Below are positions 1,157-11,792 of a stretch of DNA of 12,223 bases, piece by piece. The stretch's first letter is position 1, and each line of letters starts with the position of its first letter. The position numbers and the translations under genes are program-made. This DNA is from Clostridia bacterium (GTDB lineage: Bacteria; Bacillota_A; Clostridia; Christensenellales; Borkfalkiaceae). Where the stretch lies: positions 1 through 12,223 of the forward strand of contig JAFQBR010000340.1 of assembly GCA_017399665.1 (NCBI GenBank), in the 5' to 3' direction. The notes beneath the pieces are model-generated. The model did not search any database and had not been told where the DNA came from. It saw only the letters and a program-made list of their open reading frames with translations.

Positions 1157-1441
1157 ATGACGAAGTACGAAATGCTTTACATTATCTCAACAAAAGTTGA
1201 AGATGAAGCGAAAGATGCAATCATTGCAAAATTCGAAGGTATTGTAACAGCAGCAGGCGGTACAGTTGTTAGCACAGATAAGTGGGGTGTTAGAAAGCTC
1301 GCTTACGCTATCAACTATCAAACTGAAGGCTACTACGTTCTTATGACATTCGAATGTGACCCCAGCATTATCGCGGAAATTACCCGTGTTGCAGGTATCA
1401 CCGAAGGTATGTTAAGACAAATGGTAACTAAAGTTGCTTAA
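1157..1441 (+). CDS. rpsF: 30S ribosomal protein S6
   Basis: S6 is a small-subunit ribosomal protein that binds 16S rRNA on the platform as a heterodimer with S18. The 94-residue product has the usual family length and sequence pattern: an N-terminal KYEMLYIIS strand, a KWGVRKLAYAI segment near residues 42-52, a YYVLMTFEC strand, and a C-terminal ITEGMLRQMV stretch. The start is supported by AGGAGG at 1141-1146, about ten bases upstream of the ATG. It is the first gene of the operon with ssb and rpsR, a classic bacterial arrangement, and is driven by the promoter at 971-999. The long structured leader suggests translational feedback. There are no anomalies in the protein. The identification is very secure. 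Confidence 0.97.
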   Translation: MTKYEMLYIISTKVEDEAKDAIIAKFEGIVTAAGGTVVSTDKWGVRKLAYAINYQTEGYYVLMTFECDPSIIAEITRVAGITEGMLRQMVTKVA

Positions 1442-1486
1442 TTTTAAGTTACACATCCAAAAAGAAAAATCTACAGAGGAATAAAG

Positions 1487-1903
1487 ATGAACAAAGTATA
1501 TCTTATCGGAAATTTAACACGCGATCCCGAACTAAGTGAAACCCCTAACGGAATTGCTCTTTGCCGTTTTTCAATTGCCGTAAACCGCAACTATTCAAGT
1601 AGCGACGGCGAACGTCAAACAGATTTCTTTAATATTACTGTTTGGAGAACGCAGGCAGAAAATTGTGGCAGATACCTTAAAAAAGGTAGCAAAGTAGCAG
1701 TTGTAGGCAGCTTACAAAACCGCACTTACGAAGATAAGGACGGCAACAAGCGCACAGTTACGGATATCGTAGCAAACGAAGTGGAATTTCTATCCTCAAA
1801 AGGATCAGGAGACGGCCAAGAAGAAGAAATTCGTCCCATGGCAAGATCTGGCAAAAAGCCCGAGCTTGAAGTTATGGCAGACGACGACCAATTACCCTTC
1901 TGA
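1487..1903 (+). CDS. ssb: Single-stranded DNA-binding protein
   Basis: SSB coats single-stranded DNA in replication, repair and recombination and recruits partner enzymes through its C-terminal tip. The 138-residue protein has an N-terminal OB fold covering roughly residues 1-105, opening with MNKVYLIGNLTRDPEL and including FFNITVWRTQAENC and LKKGSKVAVVGSL. A short polar linker follows, and then the diagnostic acidic tip DDDQLPF at 132-138. The linker is short compared with E. coli or Bacillus SSB, giving a compact protein. The start is supported by AGAGGA at 1475-1480. It lies 45 bp after rpsF in the standard rpsF-ssb-rpsR order. The fragment is complete and looks fully functional. Confidence 0.96.
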   Translation: MNKVYLIGNLTRDPELSETPNGIALCRFSIAVNRNYSSSDGERQTDFFNITVWRTQAENCGRYLKKGSKVAVVGSLQNRTYEDKDGNKRTVTDIVANEVEFLSSKGSGDGQEEEIRPMARSGKKPELEVMADDDQLPF

Positions 1904-1991
1904 TTTAACAAACCTTCGCTTTGCTTTTTCCTCGCTTTAGCTATGATTTTAGGCGGGGTAGGGTGTTTTTGCGCCAAAAAGCAGGCAAAAG

Positions 1992-2026
1992 CGCACCATT
2001 TTGGTGCGGTGTAAACCCAATGGGTT
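1992..2026. repeat. Two adjacent hairpins in the ssb-rpsR gap
   Basis: The 153-bp gap between ssb and rpsR is longer than usual for this operon and holds two compact palindromes. CGCACCA (1992-1998) pairs with TGGTGCG (2002-2008) over a 3-nt loop, and AACCC (2014-2018) pairs with GGGTT (2022-2026). Neither has a following T-run, so they are not obvious terminators. They sit just upstream of the rpsR ribosome binding site (AAGGAG, 2043-2048). They could be mRNA processing or stability elements, or a local regulator of S18 synthesis. Confidence 0.5.
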
Positions 2027-2056
2027 AAAATTCAAATATCATAAGGAGAAATAAAA

Positions 2057-2350
2057 ATGGAAGAAAATACTGTTAACACAGCTGCTCCTGCTACGGAAGC
2101 TCCTGCTGCCGCAGCACCTGCAAAAAAATCTTTTAAAAGAGTTAGCAAGAAAAAAGTATGTCAATTCTGTATCGAAAAAGCAACAGCTATCGATTATAAA
2201 GAAGTTGGCAAACTTAAAAAATACGTTACAGAAAAGGGTAAAATGCTCCCCAGACGTATGACAGGCGTATGCGCAAAGCACCAAAGAATGCTTGCAGAAG
2301 CTGTTAAAAGAGCAAGAATCGTTGCACTTCTTCCCTTCAAGGGCGAATAA
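2057..2350 (+). CDS. rpsR: 30S ribosomal protein S18 (C+ form)
   Basis: S18 binds 16S rRNA in the small-subunit platform together with S6. The 97-residue protein has a conserved core from about residue 30 ([13 protein letters not shown]) through [12 protein letters not shown] and [16 protein letters not shown] to [10 protein letters not shown]. It keeps a four-residue metal-binding set, Cys35, Cys38, Cys72 and His75, so it is the C+ version; many bacteria have lost these cysteines. The N-terminus carries an extension of about 25 residues rich in Ala and Pro before the core, not seen in short S18 proteins. AAGGAG at 2043-2048 supports the start. It is the last gene of the rpsF operon and is followed by a strong terminator. 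The identification is secure. Confidence 0.97.
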
Positions 2351-3001: not shown

Positions 3002-3030
3002 TTGACTTTAAGGGCTTTATAGTATATAAT
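3002..3030 (+). promoter_or_regulatory. Sigma-A-type promoter of the toroid-KGG-TIR operon
   Basis: TTGACT at 3002-3007 and a perfect TATAAT at 3025-3030 are 17 bp apart. Transcription would start near 3037, leaving an untranslated leader of about 100 nt. GGGCTT occurs twice as a direct repeat, just before and overlapping the -35 (2998-3003) and in the spacer (3012-3017). Confidence 0.8.
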
Positions 3031-3139: not shown

Positions 3140-5254
3140 ATGAGAAAGAGCGCAGAAGTTTTAACAAGAGAAAAGGTTCTTAGTTTGGCGTTAGAAACAA
3201 AGCAAGCGTTAATTGCAGAATGGACAAAGTGCGGCGAGAAGTTTACAGATAAAAACTATTATACCGCAGAAGGTCTTCACCCTCAAGCGGTAGGTCTTGC
3301 ATCCTTACTGCTAATGTCTATTGTTTTTGGCGAAGAAAAGAAGGTTTTTCCCGAAAGCGAAAAGGCAGAAAACAACAGAAGACTTTGCAAAATGCTTACC
3401 GATATGGTAGACACTGTTGAGCGCGAAGGTTATTCTATTTCTCCATATAAATCAGCAGAAGCAACCAAAGATTTGTTTGGTACTTTTGGTTATACGGATA
3501 TTGCAACTTGGGTATTTTCTACCGGCGTGCTTGCTCGCTATGCAAGCAGAAAGGGCTCGCTTACTTTAGATAAGGGGCTTGAAGAAAGACTTTTAGTTAC
3601 AACTGCAAAATCTTTAAAGGCTATAATTGAAGGTCAAAGGGAAGATGGCTCTTGGGGCTTTAGACTTGACGGCGAAAGTGCCAGATCATTATTCTTTACT
3701 TACGGCGTAAGCGCTGCCGTTAACGATTTCTATAACTACGTAATGGGTAACATTGAACAGGTAGAAAAGGAAAATGAAACGGAGCTTTTAGGGGATGCAA
3801 AGGATAACAAGCTTATTGCATACTTAAACGGCGAGGGCGGTTTTGAAGACGTTGAAAAGGTAATGGATGAGGTTAAGGCTAAAATGCAAAGCTACCTTAT
3901 TAAGGAATGCTTACCTCTTCTTCCCAAGGTTGCGTCATGCGCAAAGCTTACCGAAGAGGAAAACGCTATTTTAGGCGTTGGTAAGCAATCTACTGCAGAA
4001 TTTGACCTTAACTACGTTAACCTTTACTATGCTTATTATCTAATCGATATGTTTATCGGTACGGAGTCAGATAAGCGCTATAAAGAAATCGTTTCAAATC
4101 CCGAAGAATTTGAAGAACTTAAAAATTACTACGGTGTAAATTCCGCGCGCGAAGAACAACGTTTTTCTATTGAAGATAACTATTATTTCTTCAAAGAAAA
4201 CGGCGGAGAAAACGCAATTAGTCTTTGCGAAGATTATATAGAACAGGCAATTCACGCAACAAGAACTAACTTCTTAAACGCAACAAGAACGGGCTTTGAG
4301 TTTTGGGATGGAACAAACTCTGAATTAGACGTTGAGTTTATTATGCCAGATGATGCAAAGGAGGCTTACACGGTAAGACAGCTTGTTAAGCGCGCTAACG
4401 TAAGCTTAAAAGAGCCCATCTTAGTTCCTATGGCACTACGTGTTAACATTCAATATTGCTACTATATCTCTAAGCAGATGGATAAGGTGGTAGACGATTT
4501 ATTCGATACCATTGCAAACGATAGATACATGGGCGAATCAAACGGCGAGTGCATTCACGGGCTTTGGGATAACTTAAGTTACAACCTACTTATCACCGAA
4601 CGCGCTATTGAAGCAATGATTGACGCATACGACTACGTTTGTATGTTTGAAAAGGAAGAAGGCGCAAAAGCAGAAGGACAAAGCGTTGGAGTTATTGACG
4701 AATGCGTTGCAAAAATGATTGATGCCCGCGTTGAAAAGGCAATGAAAAACTGCTTAAGCTCTGAAGCTGTTGCAAAGCTTGTTGAAAAAGAGGTTGAAAA
4801 ACGTCTTGCTAACGTTAAGGTTGAAGCAAAGAGCGCAAAAGCAACAGCCAGCGCACCTGCTGAAATTACCGATAAGCAAATTATTGAAAAAATACAGTAT
4901 ATTACAGACGCTTTAGAATACGGCGTTCCCAGATGCGAGGGCGAAGACGTTAGCGAGGGCGAGGTTTTGGCTCACGAAATGATTAATCTATTTAACGCAA
5001 TGCAAAAGGGCGCGTGGAGAACGGCTATTGCAAAACAGCGCTTCCTTGCTAAAACTGAAGGTAGCGACGGCGACGAGCTATTTAGCATAGAAGAACGCAA
5101 GTTCCGCGAATATAGCGAAAACGCAGTTAATATGGTTAAAGCATTTGAAACACGCTTCCCCAACTTATTCGGGGCAATAGTAAACGACGTTTCAAGAAAC
5201 GACGAAAAATACTTAATAGATTTATACAATGCGCTAAAAAGCGTAAACAAGTAA
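3140..5254 (+). CDS. Large helical protein with terpene-cyclase-like alpha/alpha-toroid signatures
   Basis: The 704-residue product has no signal peptide or membrane segment and is predicted cytosolic. Several segments resemble repeats of the terpene cyclase/prenyltransferase alpha/alpha toroid: YTDIATWVFSTGVLARY (118-134), a QW-like GQREDGSWGF (165-174) followed by a SLFFTYGVSAAVNDFY helix (183-198), an aromatic helix at 291-306, and GLWDNLSYNLLITERAIEA (474-492). I see no DXDDTA cyclase motif. A DDLFD string at 452-456 resembles an aspartate-rich motif but stands alone, so catalysis is doubtful and a binding or scaffold role is likelier. A charged Lys/Glu/Ala linker (about 505-577) leads to a C-terminal helical domain (578-704). 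AGGAG at 3128-3132 sets the start. It is first in a three-gene operon, 17 bp before the KGG ATPase. The toroid call is from motifs only; the role is inferred. Confidence 0.6.
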   Translation: MRKSAEVLTREKVLSLALETKQALIAEWTKCGEKFTDKNYYTAEGLHPQAVGLASLLLMSIVFGEEKKVFPESEKAENNRRLCKMLTDMVDTVEREGYSISPYKSAEATKDLFGTFGYTDIATWVFSTGVLARYASRKGSLTLDKGLEERLLVTTAKSLKAIIEGQREDGSWGFRLDGESARSLFFTYGVSAAVNDFYNYVMGNIEQVEKENETELLGDAKDNKLIAYLNGEGGFEDVEKVMDEVKAKMQSYLIKECLPLLPKVASCAKLTEEENAILGVGKQSTAEFDLNYVNLYYAYYLIDMFIGTESDKRYKEIVSNPEEFEELKNYYGVNSAREEQRFSIEDNYYFFKENGGENAISLCEDYIEQAIHATRTNFLNATRTGFEFWDGTNSELDVEFIMPDDAKEAYTVRQLVKRANVSLKEPILVPMALRVNIQYCYYISKQMDKVVDDLFDTIANDRYMGESNGECIHGLWDNLSYNLLITERAIEAMIDAYDYVCMFEKEEGAKAEGQSVGVIDECVAKMIDARVEKAMKNCLSSEAVAKLVEKEVEKRLANVKVEAKSAKATASAPAEITDKQIIEKIQYITDALEYGVPRCEGEDVSEGEVLAHEMINLFNAMQKGAWRTAIAKQRFLAKTEGSDGDELFSIEERKFREYSENAVNMVKAFETRFPNLFGAIVNDVSRNDEKYLIDLYNALKSVNK

Positions 5255-5271
5255 TAATTGGGAGATAGGTT

Positions 5272-6549
5272 ATGACTGCTTGTTATACATTCTATTCATA
5301 CAAGGGCGGTTCAGGTAGAACGACCACCTTGCTTAACACAACAAAACACCTTATTGAAGAACTTGGCGCATCGCCTGAAAAGCCAATGCTACTTGTTGAT
5401 GCCGATCTTGAAAGTGCAGGTCTTACCTACTTTTTTGATTGCCAAGATAAATTTACCGATATGTTTAACGGAAGCATACATACATGTAAGCTTCTTAACT
5501 CTTACGATATAGTTTTAGATAAGCGTGGGGCAGAAACTGTTTTTGGTAAGGGTGGCGGTTTAAAAAAGAGTTTAGCACCCATTATAAGAGTGCTAGCACC
5601 GCACTTTAAGGATGCAAATCTTCCAGCTCTTTTAGGGGATTTAAACCTTTCTTCAATAGAATGCGATATTTTACAAAAGATTGCAGACGTATGTAGCAGT
5701 TATTTTGAAAATCCACTTTCCGTTGACGAGGATAATTTACTTGTTTTAGAAAAATACAGTAAAGCGCTTAATTCGCTTATTTCTGCGCTTTCGCAAATCG
5801 AAAAGGATGGCGCTTTATCAAAAGAGCAAAAAATTGCTTTAAAGGAAGAAAAAATTACCGAGTTTTTACCTGCATATAAGTTCGCAGACGTATCTCACTT
5901 TTTCGGCAAAGAATACGGAACGGTTAAGTTTTTAGGTGTAGACGTATCTTATAGCGGTGAACAGCTTGTTGCAAACACCTCTATTGCGGCAATCAAAAAG
6001 CTAATAGTAACCTGCAATAAAAACAACTATTGCGCGCTTTTATTCGATAGTGGTGCAGGCGTACAAAGCTCTGCTAACGCACTTCATAAAACGTCGGATG
6101 CTATCGTTTGCTGTATGCGCCCATCTCAACAGTTTATAAGCGGTACAAGATTACAACTTGTAACGTACGAGCAGTTGCTTATTGAAAAGCAAGAGCTTAA
6201 GGATGGAAAGGATAAGAAGATTGTTCTTATAGTTCCCACCGCAGTTCCCGATTTAAGCGCAGAAACAGCAAAGCTTGAAGAAGCAAGCTTTACAGATATT
6301 CAAAAGATAGCAACCGATTTTGCTCACGTTGTAGACGGATATTTTTGTATGCCAGAAAACAGCGTTCACGAGGTATCGCTATTTAAATGGCGCGAGCAAA
6401 TTTTGGGTGTAAAAGATGCCCATGAATTAAGCGCAGACGTTCGCGCGATTTCAGATCGCTACGCTAGCGAAAACACAATGCCTGAAGATGCTAAAAAGGC
6501 ATACGCAATATACAAAGAGCTTGCTAAAAAGCTTATACAAAACACCTAA
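5272..6549 (+). CDS. ParA/MinD-like KGG P-loop ATPase
   Basis: The 425-residue protein belongs to the deviant-Walker (SIMIBI, ParA/MinD/Soj-like) class. YSYKGGSGRTTT (8-19) is the P-loop, with the signature Lys11. The usual P-loop lysine is replaced by Arg16. LLVDADLESAGL (40-51) is the switch I/A' motif, and ALLFDSGAGV (255-264) is the Walker B/switch II strand with Asp259. CMRPSQQFISGTRL (281-294) and IVLIVPTAVPDL (317-328) match later core strands. A helical insert of about 100 residues (130-230) separates the halves and is not present in plain ParA or MinD. There is no parB, minC, minE or flagellar gene nearby. GGGAG at 5260-5264 sets the start. Its position between the toroid and TIR genes suggests nucleotide-gated signalling. 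KGG ATPases of the GRT/GRS type are known beside TIR and NB-ARC proteins in other bacteria. The fold is secure; the role is inferred. Confidence 0.8.
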   Translation: MTACYTFYSYKGGSGRTTTLLNTTKHLIEELGASPEKPMLLVDADLESAGLTYFFDCQDKFTDMFNGSIHTCKLLNSYDIVLDKRGAETVFGKGGGLKKSLAPIIRVLAPHFKDANLPALLGDLNLSSIECDILQKIADVCSSYFENPLSVDEDNLLVLEKYSKALNSLISALSQIEKDGALSKEQKIALKEEKITEFLPAYKFADVSHFFGKEYGTVKFLGVDVSYSGEQLVANTSIAAIKKLIVTCNKNNYCALLFDSGAGVQSSANALHKTSDAIVCCMRPSQQFISGTRLQLVTYEQLLIEKQELKDGKDKKIVLIVPTAVPDLSAETAKLEEASFTDIQKIATDFAHVVDGYFCMPENSVHEVSLFKWREQILGVKDAHELSADVRAISDRYASENTMPEDAKKAYAIYKELAKKLIQNT

Positions 6550-6592
6550 AAACACTTAAAAAATACAACGAAAGAAGTAGTAACGGCAGATT

Positions 6593-9253
6593 ATGTATAA
6601 TAAACTTATTAGAGAAGGCCTTATAAACAGTTCTGTTGCAGAGGTGCTGTTTGGCGACGAATTTAATAGAGAAATAGCGTTAATGAGCGATATTCTACCC
6701 AAAACGGTGCACGAGGTGTGCCTGTTTTACTCTACCTTAGTGCAGGCTTACGTAATAGGGGTTGCGCACAAAAAGGGTGTTACGGTAACCGAGCTTGAAG
6801 AATACGGCCACGTTTCAGAAATGCTTACCTATCTTTGGTCGCCCGAAAAAAAGGCAGATATCGATAAAGGGGAAACTATTTTCTCTTTTATTACAGACTG
6901 TTCGCTAGTAGGTGGCGGTGAGCTTGTAAGTGAAAGCGCAACAGCCTTAATTGGCGAGCTTTGTGATGCTTACAAAAAGATTACCGCAAGAAAAAGAATA
7001 GTAAATTCGCCTGTAAGCGGAGCTAAGTTTATTGAATTTATAAAAGCGTTACCACTTCTTCGCCAATGCGAAATAGACGTTAAAAACAACAAACTTACCA
7101 TAGATAACGGCAAATACCGCATAGAATGCAACTGTTCGCCATATTTTGTATTCATAGAATACAACGAAGAAACGGGCGGGGAAAGAATTATTAGTGAAAT
7201 AACCGAAAACTGCTATCTGTTCACCTCTTCAGAGCGTGGCGAGCGCGACGGCGAACTTTTATTTAACTATTCAAAGCTTAACAGCAGTAATAAGGAAGGG
7301 CTTAAAAAGCGCATTTGCAGAAAGGTTAGCGATAACGAAAATTTAATTCTTATTTGCAAGGCTATCGGTATAGAAACTCAATGGTACGAGGATTCTTACT
7401 GGTGTGATTTTGCATTTATCAAAAAGTTAGCAGATGCAACTAACGAAAGCTTGCTTACATCTCTTGATTTAGATTCTCCTCAACGCGCGACCTCAGATAT
7501 TAGAAACACTCTTAACCTGTTATTTAAGGGCACTTCTTTAGAAAACGTTGTACCAAAGGATAAAAGCATTTACCCATCACAGTTAAAAATGTTCATATAC
7601 GAGCTTTTTATAACTCAAGGTGTGTTTAAAAGTATATACAGTTTAATGCACGCAGGCGAAGGCTCTGCAACAACTGTTTATACCGAAAAGCTTTTCCGCG
7701 TTATTATGGAAACCTTCCATAAGGAAGAAAATCTTGCTAAAGAGGAATGCGAAAGGGCTATTGAAGATTGTAAGGCTAAAATAGAAGAGCATCTTGAAAA
7801 GCTAAAAAAGATTGTTACAAGGGATACCCAAGCTTATAGAGCAAGGGCAAGCGAAATTAGGGCAGAGCAAAGAACAATTTGTATTTTACATACGGCAGGT
7901 ATTAAAAACGATAAAATCGTTGCAGATGCAGAAGAACTTCTTTCAATAGACGACTTTTACGATATGTTTGTAAATCCCGAAACCTCTATTAACGAAGTTT
8001 TAGGTAATTTGCTTTCGCTTTTATGCTGTTTTTACGGCGCAATTTTACAAAATAATAAAGAGTTTAACAGCACTAAATATTATCAGGACGTTTACCGTTT
8101 AAGAAAGGAATATAACGCAGAAAAAAGCGTAGAATATTTATTTGACGCCTTTAGTGAAATTGTTGAAAAATCTCAAGGTAACGAGGTTATAGATAAGCTT
8201 ATTGGCAGAGAAAGCATTTGCGACGTAAACAAGCTTATTGGCTTTAAGGATAAAATTCTTGCTTTAAAAAGAGAGGATGAAGAGGGTTTTTACGCATCAA
8301 AGAGCGCAATCTCTTTATCCAACGGCCCGGGTATGTTTATAAGCTATTGCAGAGATGATAATACTGAAGACAACCCCAAGATTTCGCGCGTGGCAGATTA
8401 CTTTAAAAGTAAGGGCATCAACGTATTTTTTGATACTTCTTCTATCGACTCTGGCGACGATTGGAAAAAACGCGTTCGCTCTTGTATAAGAGATAAAAAT
8501 ACAGTTATGGTGCTAATGTTTGTTAGTAAAGCTTCTATTTTGCGCCCAAGTGTGGAATTTGAGCTTGCGATTGCTAACGACGAAGCAAAGAAGAGATTTG
8601 ATAGCGACGCTGAAAAGCGCGAGCATTTCCTTTTAACTGTAAACCTAGAAGAAGAAAATATAGAAAAGTTTATCTATGATATGTGGACGGATGAAAGATA
8701 TATGGAATTTGAACACAGAATAGATAAATTTAAAGAAATTATATCGCATAAGACCTTTAGAAGAATTAACGAACTTGATAAAATTTGGGAAAACTTCCAA
8801 AGAAACGCAAGCGAAAGCGCAAAAGTCGGTCAAGACTTTGTTAGCGACGGCACAGTTTTAACCGAAGGTCAAAACGATCAGGTATATTTACAAATTGCAA
8901 ACTTCTTGGCATTTTTAAAGTATGGCAACAACTACGAATGGCAAGAGCTTGATGCAATAGACGAATACTTTAACAAGGATAAGGGAGATACCTCTTACTG
9001 CGTATTTCCAATGGTTGCCTCTGTTCGCGAAACGCGAATTAAAAGGGATAACATAACGGTTATTGGGCACGAAATTATCCGCGGTAAGGGCAGAGCAAAC
9101 AGGGGCGCTAATTACATTTTATCTTCTAAAAAGCTTTCTGTTGAAGAATATTATTGCGTTCCCAACTATAAAACGGTTGGCGAAAACTGTTCTTGGATGG
9201 TAGAGCCATTGCTTATCAGTCACGAAAAATTCGTTCATAAGGATGAAGAATAA
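6593..9253 (+). CDS. TIR-domain protein with large helical N-terminal region and C-terminal extension
   Basis: The TIR domain covers about residues 579-720 of 886. It starts with MFISYCRDD (581-589), continues with VADYFKSKGINVFFDTSSI (600-618), SGDDWKKRV (620-628) and VLMFVSKASIL (640-650), and then SVEFELAIA (653-661). Glu657 is the best candidate for the catalytic glutamate of NAD-cleaving TIR domains. The N-terminal 570 residues are mostly helical, with a coiled-coil-like stretch at 378-407, and match no family I recognise. A further domain of about 150 residues follows the TIR (730-886), so the TIR is internal. Bacterial TIR proteins in defence operons degrade NAD or make cyclic nucleotide signals after activation; whether this one does is inference. 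It starts 43 bp after the ATPase gene without a strong ribosome binding site. There is an in-frame stop at 6581-6583, which rules out a start further upstream. Confidence 0.8.
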   Translation: MYNKLIREGLINSSVAEVLFGDEFNREIALMSDILPKTVHEVCLFYSTLVQAYVIGVAHKKGVTVTELEEYGHVSEMLTYLWSPEKKADIDKGETIFSFITDCSLVGGGELVSESATALIGELCDAYKKITARKRIVNSPVSGAKFIEFIKALPLLRQCEIDVKNNKLTIDNGKYRIECNCSPYFVFIEYNEETGGERIISEITENCYLFTSSERGERDGELLFNYSKLNSSNKEGLKKRICRKVSDNENLILICKAIGIETQWYEDSYWCDFAFIKKLADATNESLLTSLDLDSPQRATSDIRNTLNLLFKGTSLENVVPKDKSIYPSQLKMFIYELFITQGVFKSIYSLMHAGEGSATTVYTEKLFRVIMETFHKEENLAKEECERAIEDCKAKIEEHLEKLKKIVTRDTQAYRARASEIRAEQRTICILHTAGIKNDKIVADAEELLSIDDFYDMFVNPETSINEVLGNLLSLLCCFYGAILQNNKEFNSTKYYQDVYRLRKEYNAEKSVEYLFDAFSEIVEKSQGNEVIDKLIGRESICDVNKLIGFKDKILALKREDEEGFYASKSAISLSNGPGMFISYCRDDNTEDNPKISRVADYFKSKGINVFFDTSSIDSGDDWKKRVRSCIRDKNTVMVLMFVSKASILRPSVEFELAIANDEAKKRFDSDAEKREHFLLTVNLEEENIEKFIYDMWTDERYMEFEHRIDKFKEIISHKTFRRINELDKIWENFQRNASESAKVGQDFVSDGTVLTEGQNDQVYLQIANFLAFLKYGNNYEWQELDAIDEYFNKDKGDTSYCVFPMVASVRETRIKRDNITVIGHEIIRGKGRANRGANYILSSKKLSVEEYYCVPNYKTVGENCSWMVEPLLISHEKFVHKDEE

Positions 9254-9258
9254 CTAAT

Positions 9259-9744
9259 ATGGGAAAGGTACAAATTAAGGACGGAAAAATTAATTTTTGT
9301 TGCCGTATGAACGAATGTCAGCATAGCTGTTGCGGACCGTTCAGCGGTATTACAAGCGAGCTTGGCAGTATAGATAACCGCCCTTTTGAAGAAATCGTTT
9401 TAACAAAAGAAGACTACGAACGCTTTTATCAAGCAGGGCTTTTACACTTTGTAGAAAAGGGCTTTTCGGAAGGTACAGGCAAAAGCTATTATAAAATGGC
9501 TTTAGAAAAAGATGGTACTTGCAAGGCGTTTGTAGACGGAAGATGTACTATAAATAACGAAAAGCCAACACTATGCAAGGCTTTTCCTTTTTACTTCGAT
9601 ATGTTCTCTGGACTATGCGCTATTGAATGCGAAGGCTTTTCGGAAGAATATTGGAGTGATTTAAGTAATTATGAGGGCTGTTTTGAGGCGGCGCAAAAAA
9701 TGTATGAATTCTGGATTGACTTCTACTCGAAAAAAAATAAATAA
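9259..9744 (+). CDS. YkgJ-family cysteine-cluster protein
   Basis: The 161-residue protein has the cysteine layout of the YkgJ (UPF0153) family, thought to chelate iron or zinc. It shows Cys14-Cys15, a C-x4-x3-CC group (Cys20, Cys24, Cys25), Cys88, then GRCTINNEKPTLCKAFPFYF (94-113) with Cys96 and Cys106, and later Cys120, Cys124 and Cys141. The exact biochemical function is not established for the family. The gene begins only 5 bp after the TIR gene and has at best a weak AAGGA 15 bases upstream, so translation probably depends on ribosomes finishing the TIR gene. Its 3' end overlaps the decarboxylase gene. It may belong to the upstream three-gene system or to the downstream metabolic genes; the sequence alone does not decide. 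The family call is secure. Confidence 0.85.
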   Translation: MGKVQIKDGKINFCCRMNECQHSCCGPFSGITSELGSIDNRPFEEIVLTKEDYERFYQAGLLHFVEKGFSEGTGKSYYKMALEKDGTCKAFVDGRCTINNEKPTLCKAFPFYFDMFSGLCAIECEGFSEEYWSDLSNYEGCFEAAQKMYEFWIDFYSKKNK

Positions 9745-11179
9745 AACCGACCATCAAAAAACGCCTATTGCAACCGCGCTTAAAAGCGAATGCGCGCTTT
9801 CGGCTATCCCGCTAGACGTGCCGGGGCATAAAGGTAATATTGCAGAGCTTAAAAACTTTTACGGCGAAGAGCTTTTGAAGTTAGATAAAAACTCTCGCCC
9901 CTCAATAGATAACCTTTGTCAGCCAACAGGCGTTATTAAAGAGGCTGAAGAGCTGGTGGCGGATGCCTTTGGAGCAGAAAACGCCTTTTTTATGGTTAAC
10001 GGCACGACTTCTACCGTGCAAGTAATGGTAATGAGCGCGGTTAACCCGGGCGAAAAAATTATTATGCCCCGAAACGTGCACGTTAGCGTTATTAACGCAG
10101 TAATTTTGGCTGGAGGCATTCCCGTTTACGTTGACCCAGACGTGCATGAAAAATACGGTATTCCGCTTGGCATGAAGATTAAGGACGTTAAAAATGCCAT
10201 AGCGCAAAATAGGGAAGCTACCGCAATTTTGGTCAATAATCCCACCTATTACGGCGTTTGCTCTGACCTTAAACAAATAGTAGAACTAGCGCATCAAAAC
10301 AATATGAAGGTGCTTGTAGACGAGGCGCACGGAACGCATTTTTACTTTGGCGAAAACATGCCGATTTCCGCAATGCAGGCAGGGGCGGACTTTTCTGCCG
10401 TAAGCATGCATAAAACGGGTGGCTCGCTAACTCAAACCTCATTCTTGCTTACAAATAACGGGGTAGACGTTGATTACGTAAGAAAAATTATTAACCTTAC
10501 CATGACGACTAGCGCATCATACTTACTTCTTTCTTCGCTAGATATTGCGCGCAAAAACCTAGTGCTTTGCGGTAAAGAAATTTTTGCAAGGCTTTGCGGT
10601 TGGGTAAGTGAAAGCATAGATAAAATTAATCAAATTAACGGGCTTGAAGTCCTTTCAAGCAGTAATATGTTAAACGGAGATTCCGTTTACGCCTTTGACC
10701 CAACAAAGCTTGCAGTTAATACCTCCGGTATTGGGCTTGCAGGTATAGAGGTTTACAATATTCTTCGCGAAAAATACAATATCCAGCTTGAATTTGGTGA
10801 TATAAGCAACATTTTGGCGCTACCTGCTGTGGGTGATGACAAAAACTACGGTATGATTTTAGCTGACGCTCTTTTAGATATTTCTAAAAAATACGGCAGA
10901 AATTCCAGACCTGTTTATTATTATGAATATATAAAACCCGTGGTAAAAATCCCCCCGCGTGATGCCTTTTATTATCCTAAGGAAAGTGTTTTGTTAAAGG
11001 ATAGCATTGGCAGAATTAGTGGGGAATACGTTATGTGTTATCCACCGGGAATACCGCTTTTAGCTCCCGGCGAGCTTATTACCGAGCAATTTTTAAGCCA
11101 TATTGAATACAGTAAGCAACTGTGCTGTAAAATTATAGGTGGAAGCGGAGAAAGAGATACTCTTACCGTTATAAAATAG
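9704..11179 (+). CDS. Orn/Lys/Arg decarboxylase family, PLP-dependent
   Basis: This is a fold-type I PLP enzyme of the SpeA/YaaO-like group, which makes polyamine precursors by decarboxylating arginine, lysine or ornithine; the substrate cannot be told from motifs. With a start at 9704 it is 491 residues, the usual length for this group. Visible motifs are LDVPGHKGN (37-45), FFMVNGTTSTVQ (95-106), VLVDEAHGTHF (203-213) with the cofactor-contacting Asp, and SMHKTGGSLTQTSF (234-247) with the PLP-binding Lys237. The start is uncertain. An ATG at 9671 would add 11 basic residues without a ribosome binding site, while 9704 has GAGGCGG 12 bases upstream; family alignment begins only about residue 18. 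The start lies inside the YkgJ gene (41-bp overlap), implying translational coupling. The product is cytosolic. Confidence 0.9.
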   Translation: MNSGLTSTRKKINKTDHQKTPIATALKSECALSAIPLDVPGHKGNIAELKNFYGEELLKLDKNSRPSIDNLCQPTGVIKEAEELVADAFGAENAFFMVNGTTSTVQVMVMSAVNPGEKIIMPRNVHVSVINAVILAGGIPVYVDPDVHEKYGIPLGMKIKDVKNAIAQNREATAILVNNPTYYGVCSDLKQIVELAHQNNMKVLVDEAHGTHFYFGENMPISAMQAGADFSAVSMHKTGGSLTQTSFLLTNNGVDVDYVRKIINLTMTTSASYLLLSSLDIARKNLVLCGKEIFARLCGWVSESIDKINQINGLEVLSSSNMLNGDSVYAFDPTKLAVNTSGIGLAGIEVYNILREKYNIQLEFGDISNILALPAVGDDKNYGMILADALLDISKKYGRNSRPVYYYEYIKPVVKIPPRDAFYYPKESVLLKDSIGRISGEYVMCYPPGIPLLAPGELITEQFLSHIEYSKQLCCKIIGGSGERDTLTVIK

Positions 11180-11201: not shown

Positions 11202-11792
11202 ATGAATAAGATTATAACCATCAGCCGTGAATTCGGCAGCGGCGGAAGAACTATTGGCAAAAAAGTTGCAGAAAAACTTAATATTCCCTGTTACGATCAC
11301 GAAATTATTGAAAAAATTGCTCAAAAATCAGGTTTTTGTGAAGAATTTATTCGCGAAAAGGGTGAATATGCCAACACTGCAAGCAGATTTTTTAACGCTC
11401 TTGCAGCGGGCGCTACAAGTGGACTTTCTTTACAAGACAAATTGTGGATAGAACAGGAAAAGGTTATCACAGAGCTTGCTCAAGCGCAATCTTGCGTAAT
11501 TGTTGGTCGCTGTGCAGACGTTATTTTAAAAGATAAAGCAGACCTTTTAACCGTATTTATTCACGCAAGTATGGAAAAAAGAATGGAGCGCATCGTAAGG
11601 GTATACGGCGAAAAGGAAGAGCCCACCGAAAAACGCCTTAAAGATAAAGATAAACGCCGTAAAGCTTACTACCAATATTATACCGATAGCGAATGGGGCG
11701 TTGCTAACAAATACCACCTTTCACTAGATAGTGGCGAATTAGGTATTGATAAGTGTGTAGAGCTAATTGCTCTTGCATTCAACGCAAAATAA
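11202..11792 (+). CDS. Cytidylate-kinase-like P-loop protein
   Basis: The 196-residue protein is of the cytidylate-kinase-like family (Cytidylate_kin2 type), common in Clostridia and distinct from true Cmk. It opens with ISREFGSGGRTIGKKVAEKL (7-26), whose GSGGRT loop replaces the GxxGxGK of ordinary nucleoside kinases, then YDHEIIEKIA (31-40), VIVGRCADVIL (98-108) and a DLLTVFIHA strand (114-122). A lid-like KRMERIVRVYG and a Lys/Arg-rich stretch (141-154) follow, then a conserved YYTDSEWG. The phosphoryl acceptor is not established for the family. AGGAG at 11191-11195 gives a clear start. It follows the decarboxylase by 22 bp, is probably cotranscribed with it, and is the last gene before a terminator-like hairpin. 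Confidence 0.92.
   Translation: MNKIITISREFGSGGRTIGKKVAEKLNIPCYDHEIIEKIAQKSGFCEEFIREKGEYANTASRFFNALAAGATSGLSLQDKLWIEQEKVITELAQAQSCVIVGRCADVILKDKADLLTVFIHASMEKRMERIVRVYGEKEEPTEKRLKDKDKRRKAYYQYYTDSEWGVANKYHLSLDSGELGIDKCVELIALAFNAK

Follow-up and report, generated by a model that had tools for sequence, protein, structure and literature searches.

The window, a stretch of 12,223 nucleotides from a Clostridia bacterium (contig JAFQBR010000340.1), carries five consecutive genes that we interpret as a TIR-effector conflict system not described before, built on a new core and recurrently joined by enzymes of amine metabolism. We predict a mobile accessory conflict cassette, probably antiphage, in which a TIR NADase is gated by a toroid protein, an ATPase and a scaffold; we place this reading at slightly better than even (a probability of about 0.52). 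It is favored because the operon is conserved, its spread is patchy, one relative (L099) is free of the cassette, GC content dips across an archaeal copy, and a transposase or a recombinase lies nearby in some loci. It is also favored because of the toroid fold, a TIR domain resembling those of SPARTA, plants and AbTIR with its catalytic glutamate, RyR and SLATT genes close to some copies, and the arginine and polyamine enzymes encoded alongside.

Organization of the cassette

The first-pass annotation had described three large frames in one run, spaced 17 and 43 bp apart, and their coordinates, strand and lengths were all reproduced (Table 1). The trio is real, but the run does not end with it as had been supposed: gene 4 begins 5 bp past gene 3 and gene 5 overlaps gene 4, so the unit has five genes. 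A consensus promoter had been placed ahead of the trio, and this stands, with 11/12 consensus bases and with the same hexamers and 17-nt spacer length upstream of the toroid gene of the relative L001. The promoter lies inside a 75-nt stretch that is 76% identical in L001 and is the longest part of the upstream gap alignable to that relative (the other four matches are of 13 to 27 nt). Promoter-like sites over the whole window occur at the number expected by chance (30 versus 28.5 expected, sd 4.7). The claim that the trio has no internal terminator needs qualification, given two overlapping weak patterns on the + strand at 6706-6722 in the TIR gene, although the window total of such patterns is also that expected by chance (15 versus 12.3, sd 4.2).

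The left flank holds host genes that we take to be rpsF, ssb and rpsR, judging from their sequences. At the window edge (1-945) is an open-ended frame for a 314-aa protein without a Pfam match; a longer L001 protein at the matching place has a stretch that is 39% identical to it.

Table 1. Features of the window and of related loci, with coordinates in the respective sequence
Feature	Location	Strand	Description
Left flank	1157..2350	+	rpsF, ssb, rpsR (presumed names; host genes)
Cassette promoter	3002..3030	+	TTGACT-17-TATAAT
Gene 1	3140..5254	+	alpha/alpha-toroid protein (predicted fold), 704 aa
Gene 2	5272..6549	+	KGGSGR (MinD/ParA-like) ATPase, 425 aa
Gene 3	6593..9253	+	scaffold-TIR protein, 886 aa
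TIR domain	8336..8593	+	residues 582-667 of gene 3 product; TIR_2 E 2.8e-11
Catalytic-glutamate codon E657	8561-8563	+	kept in all aligned TIRs
C-terminal domain	8858..9232	+	about residues 756-880 of gene 3 product; common to separate scaffolds elsewhere
Gene 4	9259..9744	+	Cys-cluster protein (CxxCxxCC/YkgJ-like), 161 aa
Gene 5	9671..11179	+	PLP-dependent Orn/Lys/Arg decarboxylase family; start 9671 or 9704
Right flank	11202..11792	+	cytidylate-kinase-like gene (host gene); PF13189 184.2 bits; 22 bp past gene 5
Tandem SpeD-like fusion, L058	5760-6554
Tandem SpeD-like fusion, L059	10349-11167
Tandem SpeD-like fusion, L061	3581-4378
Tandem SpeD-like fusion, L115	12777-13589
Type 3 locus, L011	1067-9129		radical SAM, toroid-like, KGG ATPase, scaffold, TIR
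Type 3 locus, L012	5096-13577		radical SAM, toroid-like, KGG ATPase, scaffold, TIR
Type 3 locus, L019	4138-12256		radical SAM, toroid-like, KGG ATPase, scaffold, TIR

Conservation, insertion site and distribution

As had been proposed, the trio is conserved as a unit and is not made up of core genes of all relatives. Toroid, KGG ATPase and TIR genes occur in this order in 8/8 loci with a full-length ATPase relative in a species-level genome collection (L001 to L008; the TIR gene of L004 runs off its contig and the L003 toroid gene is interrupted by a run of two Ns), and chance alone does not explain the identical order. The remaining 19 of the 27 ATPase loci are distant or match mainly at the P-loop; these include L009, with a distant toroid, and L011, L012 and L019, with TIR genes. 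A toroid was found in 7/201 sampled genomes of the family of G001 (five of the seven distant), in 1/291 of the class of G006 and in 1/102 of a further sample, seed genomes counted. The distant toroid profile found 1/31, 1/306 and 4/325 genomes, again with seed genome(s) counted.

Outer neighbors, where visible, vary among loci, except that in both the window and L001 rpsF-ssb-rpsR precedes the cassette and the cytidylate-kinase-like gene follows it. The three upstream genes are 86-93% identical to those of the window in L001 and 86-89% identical in L099, with their order kept. In L099 they are followed by the kinase gene (67% identity) and none of the five cassette genes is present. Since all five are missing together, the cassette appears to be gained or lost as a five-gene block, as judged from this one relative. 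A 140-aa P-loop ORF lies between rpsR and the kinase gene of L099, at the cassette position (7379-7801). Nine further loci (L100-L108) have the kinase gene with the rpsF-ssb-rpsR flank unmatched, and so are uninformative on this site. In L001 a Mutator-family transposase is encoded between rpsR and the cassette (5425-6600).

The cassette is also carried by an archaeal MAG, where GC content is 0.52-0.54 across it versus 0.57-0.63 around it; most named members are MAGs. The toroid had no match in plasmid or phage records and no relative in viral contigs. The ATPase had no match in plasmid records, and a scan of viral contigs with it gave 10 distant P-loop matches. Overall, the cassette is rare, looks mobile, and is a feature of gut microbes.

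Predicted core proteins

The gene 1 product is predicted to adopt an alpha/alpha-toroid fold, with one QW-like motif (residues 166-172) and an extra C-terminal helical part modeled at low confidence. It had been called a terpene-cyclase-like toroid, which holds for the fold class only. Terpene-cyclase activity is rejected because the class II DxDD acid motif is absent from the window protein; the pattern occurs somewhere in 5/26 relatives. The CGEQ motif is likewise absent from the window protein. Squalene-hopene cyclase, cellobiose 2-epimerase and the complement thioester domain share only 6-16% identity with it among the matches listed, and it differs from these alpha/alpha toroids in lacking both motifs and in having the additional helical part. 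No model in Pfam, NCBIfam or PADLOC scored above its cut-off. Searches against sequences of solved structures gave only unrelated helical proteins and terpene synthases, at E 0.0024 or worse. In PADLOC-DB 2.0.0 the toroids of the window, L115 and L061 had no match, and that of L012 had one weak match, to ZorA (E 8.6e-4).

The gene 2 product has a KGGSGR P-loop and shares this region with the AAA_KGGVGR ATPases of NCBIfam (NF047398), yet scores below their curated cut-off (65.2 bits versus 90). The motif is invariant in 51/51 aligned ATPases, as are K11 and R16. Because the Walker-A lysine is replaced by arginine in all 51, ATP hydrolysis is uncertain. ATPases of the close family carry a long insert relative to those of the other architectures described below, and the window protein matched none of the sequences of solved structures. 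Such ATPases had been said to occur beside TIR and NB-ARC proteins; the TIR partner is present here, but no NB-ARC was found among the proteins scanned.

The gene 3 product belongs to the TIR family (TIR_2, 44.4 bits versus a Pfam cut-off of 28), and is probably an NAD-cutting enzyme of the immune type. E657 is invariant in 15/15 aligned members, and the catalytic glutamate is kept in 11/11 TIRs of an alignment across architectures that does not include L115-L117. Foldseek placed SPARTA best for the TIR region, with plant TIRs alike (best E 8e-4), and a sequence search returned AbTIR and plant TIRs among its matches. Weak matches over this region were to the ThcB4, ThsB, retron-TIR and Aga_TIR models. 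The model of the whole protein is poor (pLDDT 61), too much so to serve for modeling the complex. Residues 756-880 match the C-terminal domain of scaffold proteins that are encoded separately elsewhere (hhalign 96.6%, E 5.7e-10 with A9; 85%, E 6e-6 with A5). TIR and scaffold are thus one protein in the window and two genes in other architectures, which suggests that the two work together. Three scaffolds were compared with PADLOC-DB 2.0.0, and 0/3 matched.

Related architectures and amine enzymes

A second architecture, which we refer to as type 2, comprises L058-L062 (from the family of G001) and L115-L117 (from the order of G006, the three new loci among the 4/325 genomes above). A profile of five of the type 2 toroids and that of L009 matches the close-family toroid (99.95%, E 1.9e-37). 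Toroid and KGG ATPase are present in 8/8 of these loci and a TIR is recognized in six (L058, L061, L062, L115, L116 and L117), that of L062 at a score of 27 versus a cut-off of 28. No TIR was recognized among the part of the ORFs scanned in L059 and L060. Six of the eight loci encode a scaffold (748 to 962 aa). The scaffold profile matches those of L059, L060, L061, L115 and L116; that of L117 (11668-14553) misses the profile, yet is 72% identical over its length to that of L116, and has a GNAT acetyltransferase domain fused at its C-terminus (residues 820-939). L058 encodes just a 232-aa protein resembling the N-terminal part of the scaffold, and a 200-aa protein of L062 gave no scaffold match. 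The L116 scaffold counterpart lies at 4187-7075 (-). A serine recombinase is encoded about 1.4 kb downstream in L117. Homologous proteins of 508/509 aa without an assigned family (25% identity, E 2e-45) are encoded at the cluster edges of L059 (2764-4290) and L060 (2834-4363), on opposite sides of the core (5' in one locus, 3' in the second).

Of the 19 loci whose gene context could be read, 13 encode arginine or polyamine enzymes, which come from four unrelated families; this count was made without matched control loci, and loci of the same type are related and so are not independent events. The 19 are the window, L001, L002, L003, L005-L008, L058-L062, L115-L117, L011, L012 and L019; L004, L009 and L010 were excluded before counting as their contigs end. 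An Orn/Lys/Arg (OKR) decarboxylase is found in seven loci, a member of the agmatine deiminase family in L058, L060 and L062, a member of the arginase family in L059, and a SpeD-like protein in L058, L059, L061 and L115. The remaining six loci (L007, L116, L117, L011, L012 and L019) have none, which means that the amine is not a general requirement across the family. The notion that polyamine genes are always present was dropped, as L116 and L117 have none.

The recurrence of these four families, together with a GGGxHC(I/L)T motif that is intact in 3/3 agmatine deiminases, could point to a regulated arginine/polyamine metabolic operon with the toroid, ATPase and TIR protein as regulators or scaffolds and no role in defense. 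We consider this improbable. L116 and L117 encode a TIR, a toroid, an ATPase and a scaffold but none of these enzymes, three loci carry a radical SAM protein instead and L007 has neither. The rarity of the cassette also speaks against it, as does the second OKR-family copy encoded outside the cassette in five genomes.

The SpeD-like partners, none of which is in the window itself, are tandem fusions in which the serine preceding histidine (the pyruvoyl serine) is kept in the C half in 4/4 and in the N half in 1/4. According to the available parts of a study of SpeD1-SpeD2 fusions (Li et al., 2023; PMC10407285), the N half of the published proteins is an AdoMet decarboxylase, the two fusions assayed use ornithine and not arginine or lysine, and the ornithine activity resides in the C half of the one fusion dissected by mutation. 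As far as those parts describe, the type 2 partners are alike in the tandem arrangement and the kept C-half serine, and differ in that three of four have lost the N-half serine. No spermidine synthase was matched in 9/9 genomes, including G485 (L058), G433 (L059) and G518 (L061) and leaving out G1041 (L115), with controls positive in 10/14 (the genomes are perhaps incomplete); a supply of spermidine synthesis by the SpeD-like partner is thus disfavored. Given the lost serine, the published ornithine activity and the absence of a spermidine synthase match, the SpeD-like partners more likely decarboxylate ornithine or arginine than AdoMet.

In a third architecture (type 3; Table 1), the gene ahead of the ATPase encodes a protein of ~800 aa with a match to the toroid (97%, E 1.1e-10) and a TIR gene is present in 3/3 loci, which brings the recognized TIRs across both further architectures to 9/11 loci. 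Radical SAM proteins were assigned by family match in L011 and L012, the latter nearest to the PapB maturase (83.4 bits, cut-off 340). The known substrates of the agmatine deiminase, SpeD and arginase families are small molecules. This counts against a signaling system that modifies peptides or proteins, in which the toroid would act on a peptide or sugar and the radical SAM, Cys-cluster and PLP proteins would perform FxSxx-like tailoring, and no short precursor gene was noticed on casual inspection. The radical SAM genes of the three type 3 loci, with the PapB likeness, speak for such a system, as does the precedent of MinD/ParA-like, TIR and radical SAM partners in the available text on VMAP/FxSxx conflict systems (Kaur et al., 2020; PMC7159879). 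On balance we find it doubtful.

Genes 4 and 5

The gene 4 product carries a Cys-rich motif and resembles PF03692 (YkgJ/CxxCxxCC; 20.2 bits, E 0.001) below the gathering cut-off of 23; nothing matched among the sequences of solved structures. The gene comes after the TIR gene in seven relatives. Its profile identified 1/291 genomes of the class of G006 at E 1e-20, the single toroid-bearing one, and 2/201 genomes of the family of G001 at E 1e-15, the two with a close-type toroid. The cassette was already known from G001, G002 and G006, whose genes went into the profile; what informs here is that the subfamily is missing from the sampled genomes without a close-type toroid (0/290 and 0/199; the two samples partly overlap).

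Gene 5 encodes a member of the OKR decarboxylase family (OKR_DC_1, 231.2 bits versus a Pfam cut-off of 27) with 2x3l as its closest solved structure, and the S-x-H-K motif of the PLP lysine is kept in 7/7 gene 5 proteins. Homologues at cassette loci, a set that takes in rows of the profile itself, score 657-907 bits versus 115-135 bits for the second copies on another contig in G001, G002, G005, G006 and G008. Identity of gene 5 with the host's other decarboxylase is not supported by these scores from five genomes. The profile had no match in G004 and G007.

Both genes follow the trio in L001, L002, L003, L005, L006 and L008, with gene 5 shortened in L003, whereas L007 has gene 4 only; the L004 contig stops before either could appear. 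From these patterns we take genes 4 and 5 to be dedicated to the cassette. That they are passengers on a working trio, as might be proposed from L007 (which has no gene 5 at the cassette or anywhere in its genome at E 1e-20) and from the lack of gene 4 or gene 5 profile matches inside clusters of the other architectures, is very unlikely in view of the restriction of the gene 4 subfamily, the distinct scores of the gene 5 copies, the persistence of the pair behind the trio in differing outer contexts and the joint absence of all five genes from L099.

Defense context and comparison with known systems

Defense genes had been expected as neighbors. A few were seen, but they are few overall in the part of the L001-L008 flanking ORFs scanned (9 proteins in PADLOC, 10 in Pfam) and give weak support. 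RyR and SLATT genes lie 5-8 kb upstream of the cassette in L007. According to the available part of PMC13232231, RyR-domain proteins of phages act on the cADPR signals that TIRs make, by breakdown or by binding, and RyR neighbors therefore fit ADP-ribose signaling. A divergent RyR-domain gene is adjacent to and upstream of the L003 toroid gene (5539-7746, -). L003 also has a 239-aa N-terminal fragment of Cas9 (15393-16112, -) abutting its shortened gene 5. Both are broken at one point with no N run, so this neighbor counts little, and the junction may be a rearrangement or a misassembly.

The cassette has in common with Thoeris ThsB, SPARTA TIR-APAZ and retron-TIR systems a TIR with its catalytic glutamate, and differs from them in lacking a recognized ThsA, Argonaute or reverse transcriptase; four other proteins accompany the TIR instead. 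The ThsB-type models were matched at 18.6 bits versus a cut-off of 220 (NCBIfam ThcB4) and at E 5.9e-4 over the TIR only (PADLOC ThsB). No ThsA or other Thoeris effector was found in Pfam and NCBIfam scans of the five products or in a PADLOC scan of genes 1-4.

The available text of Kaur et al. (2020; PMC7159879) describes VMAP/FxSxx conflict systems with MinD/ParA-like proteins predicted to be inactive, TIR and radical SAM partners, and in this combination they resemble our type 3. Unlike those systems as described there, the cassette has no vWA, MoxR, VMAP or AP-ATPase recognized by Pfam. The main text of that paper has no occurrence of "KGG" or "polyamine", and its single "toroid" concerns STAND proteins. 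The first-pass annotation knew of no named system with a toroid partner, and the literature matches listed, from a search with subscription journals mostly outside it, likewise show no toroid-KGG-TIR system in the text available. A polyamine-coupled TIR in prokaryotes did not turn up among these listed matches either.

Proposed function

Taking the cassette as a conflict system, we propose that the toroid, ATPase and scaffold form a sensing and gating complex in which the toroid cavity could bind a ligand or peptide. Activation would assemble the TIR domains, which may then cleave NAD+ or convert it to an ADP-ribose signal, with the outcome that the infected cell arrests growth or dies. The product of the decarboxylase would be agmatine, putrescine or cadaverine, and this amine may set the threshold of the system or be used by the TIR as a substrate. 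The Cys-cluster protein is a possible metal-dependent partner of either the gating/TIR step or the amine step.

Several observations stand against the conflict reading. Defense neighbors are few, the Cas9 junction is doubtful, L059 and L060 are without a recognized TIR among the ORFs scanned, the toroid has no plasmid or phage match, the TIR protein model is poor, the P-loop has arginine, 6/19 loci lack a polyamine enzyme, and the named members are mostly MAGs.

A bolder version, speculative and on the unlikely side, is that the TIR adds ADP-ribose from NAD+ to the amine made by the operon (agmatine, putrescine, cadaverine or N-carbamoylputrescine), forming a new class of amine-ADP-ribose signal, or that disturbance of polyamines by phages is what is sensed; different lineages would then have recruited unrelated amine-making enzymes for one role.

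If the conflict reading is correct, the cassette would add to the TIR-effector systems one whose toroid and scaffold are absent from the libraries searched and whose span covers Clostridia, an archaeal MAG and a Bacteroidota MAG (with no TIR in its 5-kb contig). In prokaryotes it would also connect TIR/NAD chemistry with the metabolism of polyamines.
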